Origin: Capsaspora owczarzaki ATCC 30864
Lineage: Eukaryota > Opisthokonta > Filasterea
Length of the DNA: 64,000 bases
Direction of reading: 5' to 3'
Assembly: GCF_000151315.2 (NCBI RefSeq)
Contig: NW_011887292.1
Coordinates: 1,157,534 to 1,221,533, forward strand
Shown piece by piece: positions 33,322-44,697 of this stretch. The first letter of the stretch is position 1; each line of letters opens with the position of its first letter. The notes under the pieces are model-generated. The model was not told where the DNA came from. It ran no database searches and saw only the letters and a program-made list of their open reading frames with translations. A program made the translations under genes and the position numbers.

Positions 33322-33838
33322 TCAGGGTGCCTCTTCTTTGATCTCGGGTGCCTCGTCTTTGATCTTGGGTGCCGTCGAAGGTGCATCGGCGGCAAGAGGT
33401 ACGTCCGCAGCAGCAAGCGGGACATCTGAATTGCTCTCATCGTGATTGTGCTCGTGCTGTTCTGCATCAAGGCGAGTCTTCTTGACAGGCGGCGGTGAAT
33501 CGGTCTCGCGCGTGGGCTGCCCAGCAGCTTCCGCTGACGTTTCACCGGCCTGCGAACTGCTGGATGGAGTTGCAGAATCTTCTGCACCGTCATCCTCATC
33601 TTCACGCGGGCGCCTCGCGGGCTTCGGAGGTTCCTCTCGAGCCGGTTGTGGCGCTGTTGCCATTGGGGGCGCAACCGGTTGTTGCTGGGTTTGGTAGGGC
33701 TGCATGTAGTATTGCTGTTGCTGCTGCTGTTGGAGTTGTTGGAGTTGCTGTTGTGGTTGTTGTTGTAGGAGTTGCTGTTGGTGCAGGGGTTGTTGGGGCT
33801 GTTGGTAGTGCTGGTGCTGCTGGTGCTGCTGCTGCTGG

Positions 33839-33897
<59 letters not shown>

Positions 33898-36800
33898 GTA
33901 CTGTTGCTGCTGCTGCATGTGCATTGTCGCGGCACTCGTAACAGAATTAAAGCTGCGCGCAGAATCCGGCGGCGCTTGCCAAGGATGGGTCAAGGAGGTC
34001 AGGGCAATGGTCGGGACTGGGGTGGAAACCTGACCATCATCTGGCACGACTGCAATGTGGCCGAGAAGAACAGTGGTCAAACCGAGCCGAGCATGCACTT
34101 CGGTTTCGAGCAAAAAGTAAATGTACTCGTCAACGAGCAAACGAACGAGATGGAAGGAGCCAAACGTCGGGCAGCTGCGGAGAGTCAAATCGCGAATGAC
34201 GAGCGACGAGTAGTAGCTCCATCGCAGAATAAACTGGCAGGCGCGATACGAAAACTCGGCAAGGTTGGCGGCCGCTGCCGGAGAAGGCTGCAAAACACTC
34301 GTAAACATGCTGCTGGAAGACGATGCGGATGTGGCAGACAGAGGAGCGCCCATGACGCCGTTCATTGGAGGAGAGACGGCCAGTGCCGTGCCGAAAAACC
34401 CGTGCTTGGGTCGCGATGATGATGCGGATTGCTGCGAGATCGGGGACTTTGAAATGACGAGCTCGTCCACAACACTCTCCACCCAAAGCGTCAGGTCGTC
34501 CAGTCGTGAAATGCTCCGCAGCATTTGACGGAATTGCTCACCCAATCGTGCAACGACGGTTTCATCGCAGCGAGTCACCCAGCCGGCCTGATCGTGGACG
34601 CTGTCAAACTCGATGCGCGCAATAGCGGCATTCATGGCCTGGAGCTGCTCGGGATGCTGGATCATGGAGTGCACGGCTTGGCCCAGGTACGTGATGGCCG
34701 TTCGTCGACGAAGGGTTCGCGCGAACGTCGAGGAGGCGCGCACAAGCACCTCGACCACCTGCGGAGGCACGCAGGATTCGAGGGCATCGAGCATGGATCC
34801 CTCAATGTTCTTGGCAAACATGCGCACAGCCTGCAGGTTTTCGACAGGACGAACCAATTCGGGGACGAGATGCCTGGTGAGTCCGTCGTACATGGCCAGG
34901 TCTGCTCGCTCCAGGAACTCCAGCACGGCTGGATGAGAAACAAACTGGATTTGAATGGCCGAGAAGGCGCTGAAGGGCAGATTCAGCACCTGGATGGGCT
35001 GTTGCACGGCCGGGTTGGACGGCTGCCCGACAGGGCCAACGCCGTTCGCAGAAATGTGCCAGAATGTGTGCCAGACAAGTGGAATCAGTTCAAACTGGTG
35101 CGCCAGACCCAGCGCGAATACAACACGGCAAAGTTGACGGTGAGTGTGCACAAACTCGTCGCGCAAAGCGATCGCTTCGGCCCCCGAACCAGCAGGGAAC
35201 ACGTTGGGATCGATCGTCGCGGTGAACCGCGGCAGCATGTCGAGGAAGGCTGGGTTGATTTGCGTGGAGGGATCAACACCCGAAGAGCCACCTGTGCCCG
35301 GCGCAGGCACCGAAATCACCACGTAGGGGAGTGGTGCTGGGGCAGGGGGCGGTGGTTGCGGGGCAAGCTGATGCTGCTGTTGCGGCGGTTGTTGCTGTTG
35401 CTGTTGCTGCTGTTGTTGACGCAGGTACATGGTGCTGGGGGAGCTCGGTGTCGGGTAAAAGCCAGGTTGGTAGCCAGGGGGTGGCGCCAGATGCGATGGG
35501 AGTGGCGGCGCCATGCCGAATGCAGGGGGAGCGAAAGGCATCGCCTGCTGTTGCAAGTGCGGCGGTAGCGGGTGACCACCGGCATGGGGAGCGGCACCAT
35601 ACTCGACCGGGCCGCCCATGCCAGCCGCATCGGGCGCGGGATTCGCGTCGGCAGCGCGCGACTTTGGTGGGCGACCACGGCGCGGCTTCTTGTCCGATTC
35701 CCCTTCCAGCGACCACACGGTAATCTTACCAGAGCGACGAGGGTCGCTGTTGGGACCCTCGCCGCTGTCGTTATCATCGCCATCATCGTCGGCGGCGATG
35801 GCGTTGGCACCGCCGCGCTGGTTGCCTCGCGTCACTGCATGCAAATGCTCGTGCTGGGCGCTCAGCTGCTCGTACAACGGAGAAGATGGCTTGACGCGCA
35901 TGCCAATGTAGTGGTACTTTGACTGCCCGCGCATCCCCAGCCGCCGAGTGCGGAGCTTGGGAAAGACCTGGCGGATGAGCTTGCCAAAGGTGGCCGCGTT
36001 GATACGCGCCAGCTTGTTTTCGCGGCAGTGATCCTCATAGCTCGCATAAATGATGCCACGGGCCACGCTGCCAGTCGACGCCTGCTCAAAGTGGGTCGTC
36101 AACCACACCAGCGCGGCTGGAGAGTGCCGCACATAGCCGCTGCCAACACGATGGGAGCCCTGCATGTCGTCGTCGTCCTCTTCCTCTTCGTCGCCTTCCC
36201 CGTCGTCGCCGTCCGCACCATCCCCCATGTCGTCGTCGCCATTTGGGGTGAGTTTTCGTGCATGCAAGTCGTCCAACGAGCCATTCGACGGGCCGTGCAT
36301 TGCGGGGAGGTTGTGCATCATGGGCGGTTGCGGCGGCTGTTGTTGCTGGTGCTGCAGATAGGGAACTGGCTGCTCGTTTGGCGACAATGTTCGCAACTGT
36401 GCGCCTGCTGGCACAAGCAGTTGGGTTTGTGACAAGGACTGTTGCGGTGGCATGAGCATCTGCTGCCGTTGCTGGAATTGCTGTTGTTGCTGCTGCAGCA
36501 TTTGCTGTTGCGGCGATGGCTGTTGCTGCTGTTGTTGTGGTTGCTGTAGTTGCGGTGGTGCTTGCGACGCCATGTAGATGGGCTGCTGGTGTGGTGATGC
36601 AAGTGCCGGTGCTGGTTGTCCGACGTAAAAGCCGTGTTGCTGAGGATAGGGCTGCGACGGCGCCATGAACTGCTGGTTTGGCACATGCAGGAACTGCTGT
36701 GGTGGCTGCCCTGGCTGTTGCTGCATGAACATTTGGTCGTGCACTTGCTGCTGCTGCTGCTGCTGCTGCTGCGGCTGCTGCAGATATTGATGACTCGGAG

Positions 36801-36978
36801 CGGGCAGCAGGCCCATTGCAGGGCTGTTTGCGCTGGCGGCCGACGCGCTGCCCATGCTCGTCATGCTGGCGACTGGGCTGATGCGCATGCCACCCATCTG
36901 CACCATGGGGCCTGGATTTGGCTGAAATGACCCTGGGTGGTGGTTTACGAGGAAGGGCATGCTGGTGGTCGTGTCCAT
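33322..36978 (-). CDS. RFX: RFX-family winged-helix transcription factor
   Basis: DNA-binding factor of the RFX family (X-box recognition; ciliary gene control in animals, cell-cycle/DNA damage in fungi). Single coding exon, ATG at 36978 directly after an acceptor-like TTTTGCAG, so a 5'UTR intron is likely; 1218 residues. The RFX DNA-binding domain is at about residues 277-360: LVWLTTHFEQA, SVARGIIYASYEDHC, NAATFGKLIRQVFPKLRTRRLGMRGQSKYHYIG split by nothing. C-terminal to it are an AT-hook-like KKPRRGRPPK and a helical region (about 600-960) resembling the RFX extended dimerisation region. Very Gln-rich N- and C-terminal regions carry CAG repeats. The acidic C-terminus ends APEIKEEAP. It lies next to a 4-kb non-coding gap. 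Confidence 0.92.
33829..33919 (+). repeat. CTG/CAG repeat encoding poly-Gln in RFX
   Basis: Fourteen pure CTG units at 33841-33882 (CAG on the coding strand) inside a longer interrupted CTG/TTG tract. It encodes a Gln run near the C-terminus of RFX. Confidence 0.95.
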
Positions 36979-41853
<4,875 letters not shown>

Positions 41854-42000: not shown

Positions 42001-44697
42001 TCAGTTCCATGTTGTACCGACTTGTGCGATTGCGGGATTTGCAAACCGTCCGCATGGACGATTGCGTCGATTCTGTCGCCAGTAGGTTCCGCAAGCTATG
42101 CAAAAAAAAACAGACAGGAGCGGAGAGGGAGGAGGGGTAAGCGGCGAGTAAGGGTGAATCACAGGTCAAAAAGGCACCAAACAACCAACCCACATACCGA
42201 AGCAAAGCGGTTGGTTTGGCAAAGCGCCATGCAGCCACTCGGGAGTGTCAAACACACCGCAGTTTGCGCAAATGTCTGTCATTGCAGCGTAGCACGATTG
42301 ATGTCAGAAAAAAAATGGAGAACAGCAAGCAATAGGTCGCTGAGACACCTTACAATCAGCAGCTTCGTCCGTATTGTCAATATCAAGCTTGGTATCGACG
42401 GTCGAGGACGCGCCGGTGGTGAAAGGTAGCGGCACCGAAACGGTAGTGGAACGGCCGGTACTTGTTGAGTTGGAGGCGACTTTAACTGGTTGCTGGACAT
42501 TCAAGGCTGCACGAATCGCAGCCGAAGGCGGTATTTCGAGTGCATTCGGGAATGACGGGAGCAGATGTCGTAGGTTGCTAAAAACAGAGGCCGCTGCATC
42601 GCAAAAAGAAAAAAAACACATACATAGTGAGGCAACCCCAATCAGAACAAAATAGGTCAGAGACGTGAAATGCGTACCAACTGCAGCCTCATTCGATCCA
42701 GGAGATGACAAAAGTTGAGTGGATAATCGTTCAATTTGCTGCAGTTGCAGAGATCGCAGCAAAGCCGAGTTGGCCGACAGAATGACTGCCACTTTGTCTC
42801 TGAAGAAAAGAATCATAGACGCGTGCCATCAGTCAGTCGCAGATGAACAAAACAAAGTTGCAACCTGTCACATTGACCACATTCTGCAAGTGCTTTTTGT
42901 CTTCTCGTGATTCAAAATGAACGTACTTGGCTGAAATGCCTGCAACAGATCCAAGCTGCTGCTGAGCTTGATGGTTCAAGGCATCAATCTCTTGCTGCGA
43001 GGTGCGCATCGACGCAATGCGCTTTGCTTCGTCCACGTCGTTAAACAAGAGCGCAGATTCGTCCTTGCTGAGACTTGCATGAGCAGAGTTGTAAGTCGGT
43101 GCAAAAGTTGCTCTCGCGCCATAGGAGGTGAACACGACTATGGCGGGTTTTCAAACGAAAGAAGAGCCCAAGTTCAAGTCAGACCGATATGCAGGCATCT
43201 ACCCGTCGTACGCAATCAAAGAACGCAATCAAAGAACCTACCCGGCGACACAATGTGGCTTTGTGGCTCGTTCAACGGAACAATCGGAACTGGGACATTG
43301 GAGGCATAGCTTTCTAATGTGGGCACCGAAGCAGGCATTGCATGCGGCACTAGATCGACCCAATCGCAGCAGACAGCGAAACCAACATCAAAGCCCATGT
43401 CAAAACCAAAACCAAAAACGAAAACCAAACAAACATTAAAACTTAACTGCCACCCCCATTGAGCAACAAACCAGTCACTCGACTTACCGCTAAGTCCGAG
43501 AGGAGTGCTTGCTGTCATCGGAGCTAAACCGGAAGCTAACGTCGCATTCGCACTTGCTACGAGGGAGCTGGCAGTCGCATCGTCAAGAGGTGCGGCCGGT
43601 GTTGCACGTGCACGGCGAGGAAGCGCATGTCGAGCCAACACTTCTGGTGCCAAAGCAGCAATCTCGGCAGGAGTCAACGCAGTAACAGACTGGCGCCGGT
43701 GGTGTGGCTGCTGGTGCTGTTGTTGCTGAGGGCTGTGCTGTGAACTTGTGCGAGACTGCTGATGTTGAAGAAACTCTTGTTGCTGCTGGAGCAGGAGCTG
43801 TTGGTGTTGGTGGTGCGGCTGATGAGATTGCGGTTGTGGCGTTCGTCCTTGCAATTGTTGGTGCTGTTGGAGCTGGTGTTGCTGCAGTTGCAGCTGTTGT
43901 TGTTGCTGCTGTTGCAAGAGCTGCTGCTGCGACATTTTCTCGTCGCGAGACAGTTTCTGCTTGGGTGTTGATGCAGCGCCTGCCTCGTTGTCGCTGGCAC
44001 CTCGGCTGCTGGCAGCAACTGGGGTTGGCGGGGCGCGCAGCTTTTGGCGATCGCGCTCGAACGCCGTCAGGGTTTTGGGCACCAGACGGTCCACGGACAT
44101 CTGGAGCAGCTTCTTGGCTTGACGATGGTAGTGGTTCTCTGGGCCATTGTAGTGCATGCAATTGGTAAAGACGAGCTTGAGGTGGCGCTCGAAGGCTGCG
44201 AGACTGGGATACGCTCCGGCTTCAATGTTGCCGCGCATGGTTCGAAAGTCCATCGGCTCGCCAATCACGTCGGCATAGTCCGGCGCATCCTCGGCGCTCA
44301 CTGGCTCTGCAAAGAACATGTACTCGTCGCGGCCTTCGACGTCCTTGAGCAGCTGGCGCAAGTGCTGCTGGAGCAAGGCCCGCTCGGCGTCCGTCGCAGG
44401 CGCTCCCGGCTCGCCAGGCGCCACGTGCACCTGCGGCAATGGCGGCGCCATTCCTGGAGCAATCCCATCGCTGGCAACTGAAGCAGCAGCAGCAGTAGAT
44501 GGAGCGGTAGAGGTAGGAGCAGCGATCGACCCTTTGGCGCCATTTCCACTCTGCTGCTCCTGCTGCTCCTGCTGCTGCTGCTCCTGCTGCGATAGTCCAG
44601 TGCCCTGCCCGCTCGGCTCGGCGTTCTCCAATCGCGCGATCTTGGCCATCGGCTCGTCGTCTTGCGCGCCGTCCAGCGAGTGCTTGCGATCCGACAT
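42001..44697 (-). CDS. BRD7/BRD9-like bromodomain protein with C-terminal GATA-type zinc finger
   Basis: Likely acetyl-lysine reader of a SWI/SNF (BAF/PBAF) remodeler. Exons: 44697-43488, 43349-43242, 43137-42927, 42799-42678, 42593-42354, 42275-42198, 42095-42001; 687 residues, all phases close. Bromodomain at about residues 105-205: AEPVSAEDAPDYADVIGEPMD, then NCMHYNGPENHYHRQAKKL. Then Gln-rich linkers. The BRD7/9 (DUF3512-type) core follows: YGARATFAPTYNSAHASLSK, DESALLF, later a helical RSLQLQQIERLS. The last two exons encode CANC, 18 residues containing DTPEW, LCFACGTYW and RQNRRNRP: a C-X2-C-X18-C-X2-C GATA finger (Cys633, 636, 655, 658). I know of no BRD7/9 with such a finger. It ends convergent with SREK1IP1, head to head with SWEET. 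Confidence 0.87.

Follow-up and report, generated by a model that had tools for sequence, protein, structure and literature searches.

A predicted BRD7/9-type chromatin remodeler subunit with a C-terminal GATA-type finger in Capsaspora owczarzaki

Of the two human complexes PBAF and BAF, BRD7 is found in PBAF and not in BAF (PMC9741621). Within PBAF, BRD7 has an anchor motif located between two submodules and a C-terminal domain that binds to SMARCA4 and SMARCC; the BRD7 bromodomain was placed in weak density with support from cross-links (PMC9741621). In the map of PBAF bound to a nucleosome, an unassigned region next to the bromodomain of BRD7 is in contact with extranucleosomal DNA; the authors propose other subunits as the source of this region (PMC9741621). 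BRD9 defines a separate SWI/SNF subcomplex, and its DUF3512 is necessary and sufficient for binding to the complex (PMC6479050). GATA-type fingers are found in the NuRD subunits MTA1-3 and GATAD2A/B. In the finger of MTA1 the DNA-binding residues are not conserved, and a review considers it likely that this finger still binds DNA, either with a different specificity or perhaps with no specificity at all (PMC4244562).

We analysed a 64,000 nt stretch of the genome of Capsaspora owczarzaki ATCC 30864 (contig NW_011887292.1, positions 1,157,534 to 1,221,533), hereafter called the window; positions below are those of the window unless another locus is given. The window carries a seven-exon gene on the minus strand (44697-42001). 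Conceptual splicing gives an open reading frame of 687 residues with a start and a stop codon; no ATG precedes the start codon within the open frame. All six introns have GT-AG ends and are 78-138 nt long. Exon 1 (43488..44697) encodes the start codon, a Q-rich N-terminus, a bromodomain and a Q/H-rich linker. A match to DUF3512 begins in exon 2 (43242..43349, 108 nt) and has its bulk in exon 3 (42927..43137, 211 nt), which aligns with human BRD7. Exon 4 (42678..42799, 122 nt) encodes LLRSLQLQQIERLSTQ, which resembles LLRELQEAQNERLST of human BRD7. The BRD7/9-like core ends in exon 5 (42354..42593, 240 nt) and is followed there by a linker of approximately 50 residues that by eye is of low complexity. 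Intron 5 (42276..42353, 78 nt, GTAAGG...ACAG) separates this linker from exon 6 (42198..42275, 78 nt, phase 1-1), encoding cysteines 1-3 of a GATA-type finger. The fourth cysteine, a basic tail and the stop codon are encoded by exon 7 (42001..42095, 95 nt).

A Pfam scan of the protein at E up to 10, in which filters discard most matches above approximately 0.1, gave Bromodomain, DUF3512, GATA and a chance match to ALMT; BAH, ELM2, SANT and p66 gave no match. The bromodomain (residues 114-196) scores 71.8 bits (E 4.8e-20, cut-off 21.7). The DUF3512 match (residues 430-472), C-terminal to the bromodomain, scores 29.3 bits (E 9.1e-7, cut-off 23.4) and spans only 43 of the 186 profile positions (90-132). 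Among solved structures, the DUF3512 region matches the human BRD7 chains 7vdv_T and 7y8r_S with a chain E of 8e-6; the stretch aligned with BRD7 389-436 alone gives 23.0 bits (E 0.0007). A weak second piece, the exon 4 stretch named above, follows in the same order at BRD7 548-599, with 3.7 bits that are not significant alone. The sole further chain among the matches listed for this core query has an E of 1.1. The Pfam matches and the BRD7 alignment bear out the sequence-only reading that the upstream exons encode a bromodomain and a BRD7/9-type core in one frame.

It should be noted that the bromodomain on its own barely distinguishes BRD7 from BRD1, and the BRD7/9 assignment is therefore decided by DUF3512. 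Against single-domain chains of solved structures the bromodomain scores 70.2 bits for BRD7, 69.8 for BRD9 and 68.9 for BRD1. Chains with many bromodomains score higher when summed (PBRM1 124.8 bits, TAF1 97.2 bits), their best single domains giving 27.0 and 49.1 bits, respectively. As in human BRD7 and BRD9 (SMARCI), the bromodomain is followed by DUF3512, and the order of the core matches that of BRD7. Matches to Bromodomain are found at 21 places in the 27.5 Mb genome. DUF3512 has one match, at this gene, in a search that could miss a second copy fragmented by introns. This single place suggests that the gene probably encodes the organism's only BRD7/9-type (SMARCI) subunit.

The C-terminal end of the protein sets it apart from human BRD7. 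The joined exons 6 and 7 encode ...DYICANCGVFDTPEWLHGALPNQPLCFACGTYWRQNRRNRPCGRF..., in which four cysteines are spaced C-X2-C-X18-C-X2-C, within the CX2C-X17/18-CX2C spacing of GATA-type fingers. Pfam GATA (PF00320) matches residues 633-667 with 32.4 bits in the full protein (E 6.7e-8, cut-off 26.8), and the C-terminal 58 residues alone give 38.2 bits (E 1.1e-9). All three domains, Bromodomain, DUF3512 and GATA, thus exceed the curated cut-offs of Pfam, and the call of a GATA-type finger made from the letters of the sequence holds in this profile search. The top match of the C-terminal 58 residues among solved structures is human GATA-3, with E 1e-10 for the two-finger chain and 26.7 bits (E 5e-5) for the best single finger. 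With E values up to 10, the finger query matched 18 different sequences, none of them a BRD7 chain, and the database does contain chains named BRD7 of 651 and 652 residues. For human BRD7, this supports the sequence-only reading that animal BRD7 and BRD9 are not known to have such a finger.

The finger shares C-X2-C...C-X2-C, LCxACG and a basic tail with the fingers of GATA-3 and GATA-1, and TPxW with the first of their fingers. It differs from them in its X18 loop (X17 in GATA-3 and GATA-1), in having W-L-H, C-F-A-C and G-T-Y, and in being the only finger of its protein. With MTA1-3 and GATAD2A/B of NuRD it has in common that a GATA-type finger is found on what we take to be a subunit of a remodeling complex. 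Its host protein is unlike these, having a bromodomain and DUF3512 in place of BAH, ELM2, SANT and p66.

The sequence-only reading had the finger hidden by an intron placed between its two cysteine pairs. The hiding agrees with our results, since an intron-blind, frame-by-frame search of the genome found GATA matches at nine places at E <= 0.001 and missed the BRD7/9-type gene. The position of the intron was wrong. Intron 6 (42096..42197, 102 nt) falls inside the second pair (C-F|A-C) and interrupts the Ala codon, leaving three of the four cysteines on exon 6. The last residues encoded in full by exon 6 are ...PLCF, after which it holds a single base of this codon; exon 7 starts with the remaining bases of the codon, followed by Cys.

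Two other GATA-type loci of the genome may be mentioned here. The minus-strand locus L008 (G000:C7:815111-818170) encodes a PAS_3 domain (Pfam E 1.5e-6) followed by a GATA finger that is also split by an intron and includes LCNACGLRFAKKAKA. It looks White-Collar-2-like, and thus like a component of the fungal light and clock system in a holozoan. Locus L007 (G000:C5:281977-285081) encodes a divergent GATA-type finger (31.1 bits) with W-Y-E and C-S-D-C, and a stop follows soon after in the same frame.

For the finger to be part of the remodeler subunit, exons 6 and 7 must be spliced to the upstream exons. The opposite view is that these two exons form a small gene or transcript of their own and that the BRD7/9-like gene terminates in intron 5, as the stop codon met in frame when this intron is retained and an in-frame ATG just before the finger (M-T-D-I-C-A-N-C) would allow. 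Such a gene would need its own promoter within the BRD7/9-like gene, and exon 6 continues the reading frame of exon 5 at a distance of 78 nt. We scored 17 donor-acceptor pairs, within set limits around intron 5, with a splice-site model trained on nine other introns, five from this gene as modelled and four from a neighbouring gene as read by eye. The pair that gives the finger ranked first with a score of 6.6, against 4.7 for the runner-up; the finger is retained by two of the 17 pairs. Intron 5 has a branch-like CTGAC 29 nt before its 3' end, and CTGAC is found 28-42 nt from the 3' end in three of the nine other introns; intron 6 has no branch-like match. A separate gene is very unlikely. 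As the sequence-only reading had it, exons 42275-42198 and 42095-42001 are in phase with each other; the intron between them has GT-AG ends, and both belong to the single frame of 687 residues. The fusion of a GATA finger to a BRD7/9-type remodeler subunit is well supported by sequence, on a gene structure that is predicted.

What the finger does is less clear-cut, and it is here that two further explanations have to be weighed. In GATA-1, DNA is contacted at the Arg that follows the core Trp, at the knuckle Asn and at the Leu that follows CG. We compared the finger with nine other GATA-type fingers of the genome, L008 among them, and with both fingers of GATA-3. It has W-L where eight of the nine and both GATA-3 fingers have W-R, and C-F-A-C where seven of the nine and both GATA-3 fingers have C-N-x-C, so that the Arg after the core Trp and the Asn of the second cysteine knuckle, which are expected of a GATA factor, are both missing. 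The finger might nevertheless be a sequence-specific DNA reader of GATA type that guides the remodeler to particular sites, in line with a Pfam GATA score above the cut-off, GATA-3 as the top solved-structure match and a basic tail, RQNRRNRP, that shares N-x-x-N-R-P with the first finger of GATA-3. We consider this improbable, since the finger has W-L-H-G where W-R-x would be expected, C-F-A-C instead of C-N-A-C and G-T-Y instead of G-L-Y, at positions that contact DNA in GATA-1. The loss of the Arg and of the knuckle Asn would fit a module for protein contacts only, making no contact with DNA and having as its partner another subunit of the remodeler, a transcription factor or the histone tails. 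NuRD provides precedents for this: the finger of MTA1 lies in one of the regions to which RBBP4/7 binding has been mapped, and a role in histone-tail binding is reported for GATAD2A/B (PMC4244562). The retained basic tail argues against a purely protein-binding finger, as does the DNA binding likely kept by MTA1, which likewise lacks the usual DNA-binding residues and is perhaps without sequence specificity (PMC4244562). We regard this explanation as rather unlikely, if less so than the specific reader.

The suggestion that the subunit could bind DNA directly is therefore upheld only in part: the basic tail speaks for it, and the loss of the residues of a specific reader, W-R and C-N-x-C, weakens it as far as GATA-finger binding is concerned. 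A nonspecific contact with DNA, or a contact with protein, is at least as likely as direct binding of GATA type, and sequence-specific GATA reading is unlikely for a finger with these residues. An auxiliary contact with DNA, nucleosome or protein, of the sort suggested for the MTA1 and GATAD2 fingers of NuRD, suits the finger better than sequence-specific reading does. The finger could also have decayed and be without function.

The reading that we favour, with reasonable though not high confidence, is that of a single BRD7/9-type (SMARCI) subunit of SWI/SNF whose C-terminal GATA-type finger gives a weak and mostly nonspecific contact. We infer the SWI/SNF membership, the zinc binding and the function of the protein from its domain anatomy. 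In brief, the DUF3512/BRD7-like core would dock the protein in the SWI/SNF remodeler, and the bromodomain would read acetylated histone tails. The finger would add a weak contact, mostly not sequence-specific, with DNA, the nucleosome or a partner protein, and the low-complexity linker between core and finger could allow it to reach DNA or adjacent subunits.

Two candidate genes for other SWI/SNF subunits, polybromo-like and Ssr4/BAF57-like, lie elsewhere in the genome and speak for this reading. The polybromo-like ORF has three bromodomain matches and, by eye, a BAH-like stretch at its end. ARID matches are located at four places. A protein combining Ssr4 and an HMG box, an intermediate between Ssr4 and BAF57, has been described in Capsaspora owczarzaki (PMC9170682). 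We found a locus resembling it (L031, G000:C1:1327894-1331214), where a single long Q-rich frame encodes Ssr4-N-like and HMG-box-like stretches. Ssr4 is over the cut-off at this locus in the genome search (27.9 vs 27 bits), and the pieces run separately are just below it (24.1 vs 27 for Ssr4, 24.9 vs 25.4 for the HMG box). A search of the genome for GLTSCR1 gave no match, and the controls in that search were equally without match.

Two neighbours of the gene in the window may also be noted. A frame of 1244 residues on the minus strand (33322-37056), approximately 5 kb from the BRD7/9-type gene, contains an RFX match at 35890-36117 with 115.5 bits and probably encodes an RFX transcription factor, judged by this domain. 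It is the only one above the cut-off of the two matches to the RFX DNA-binding domain in the genome. The other match, at locus L033 (22 bits, below the cut-off), was considered as a lead to ARID2; we rejected it on account of a nearby frame that, by eye, resembles a packaging-type ATPase. This locus (G000:C6, around 1473724) is possibly an endogenous viral or Maverick-like element. The convergent neighbour of the BRD7/9-type gene (about 41032-41853, plus strand) has a frame in which a zinc knuckle (zf-CCHC_3, E 3.7e-8) is combined with an extended RS-rich tail, and we take it to be SREK1IP1-like.

In the open literature, represented mostly by titles and the openings of abstracts, we found no description of a protein combining a bromodomain, or BRD7/9, with a GATA finger. 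The word GATA occurs zero times in the main text of a eukaryote-wide survey of SWI/SNF subunits (PMC9170682), and passages of an article on fungal SWI/SNF and RSC mention it only as GATA3 (PMC13221647). A search of the IMG/VR viral contigs with 43230-44697, which runs through exon 1, intron 1 and exon 2 and thus lies upstream of the finger in the gene, gave 144 pattern matches and no relatives.

One may speculate that the finger was already present in the BRD7/9 of the common ancestor of filastereans and animals and was then lost in animals, its contact with nucleosome-exit DNA near the BRD7 bromodomain passing to other subunits of PBAF, and that in Capsaspora it can be switched by splicing via exons 6 and 7. 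We regard this combined scenario as very unlikely. As exon 6 is 78 nt long and in phase 1-1, skipping it would remove the finger yet keep the frame. Regulated exon skipping and intron retention have been reported in Capsaspora (PMC3870316), which makes a splicing-out of the finger testable.

Transfection and genome editing of Capsaspora have been described (PMC6001378, PMC9170242). With an extra finger on what is probably the only BRD7/9-type subunit of a unicellular relative of animals, this gene may be seen as a natural experiment on what a contact like the one with extranucleosomal DNA in PBAF contributes.
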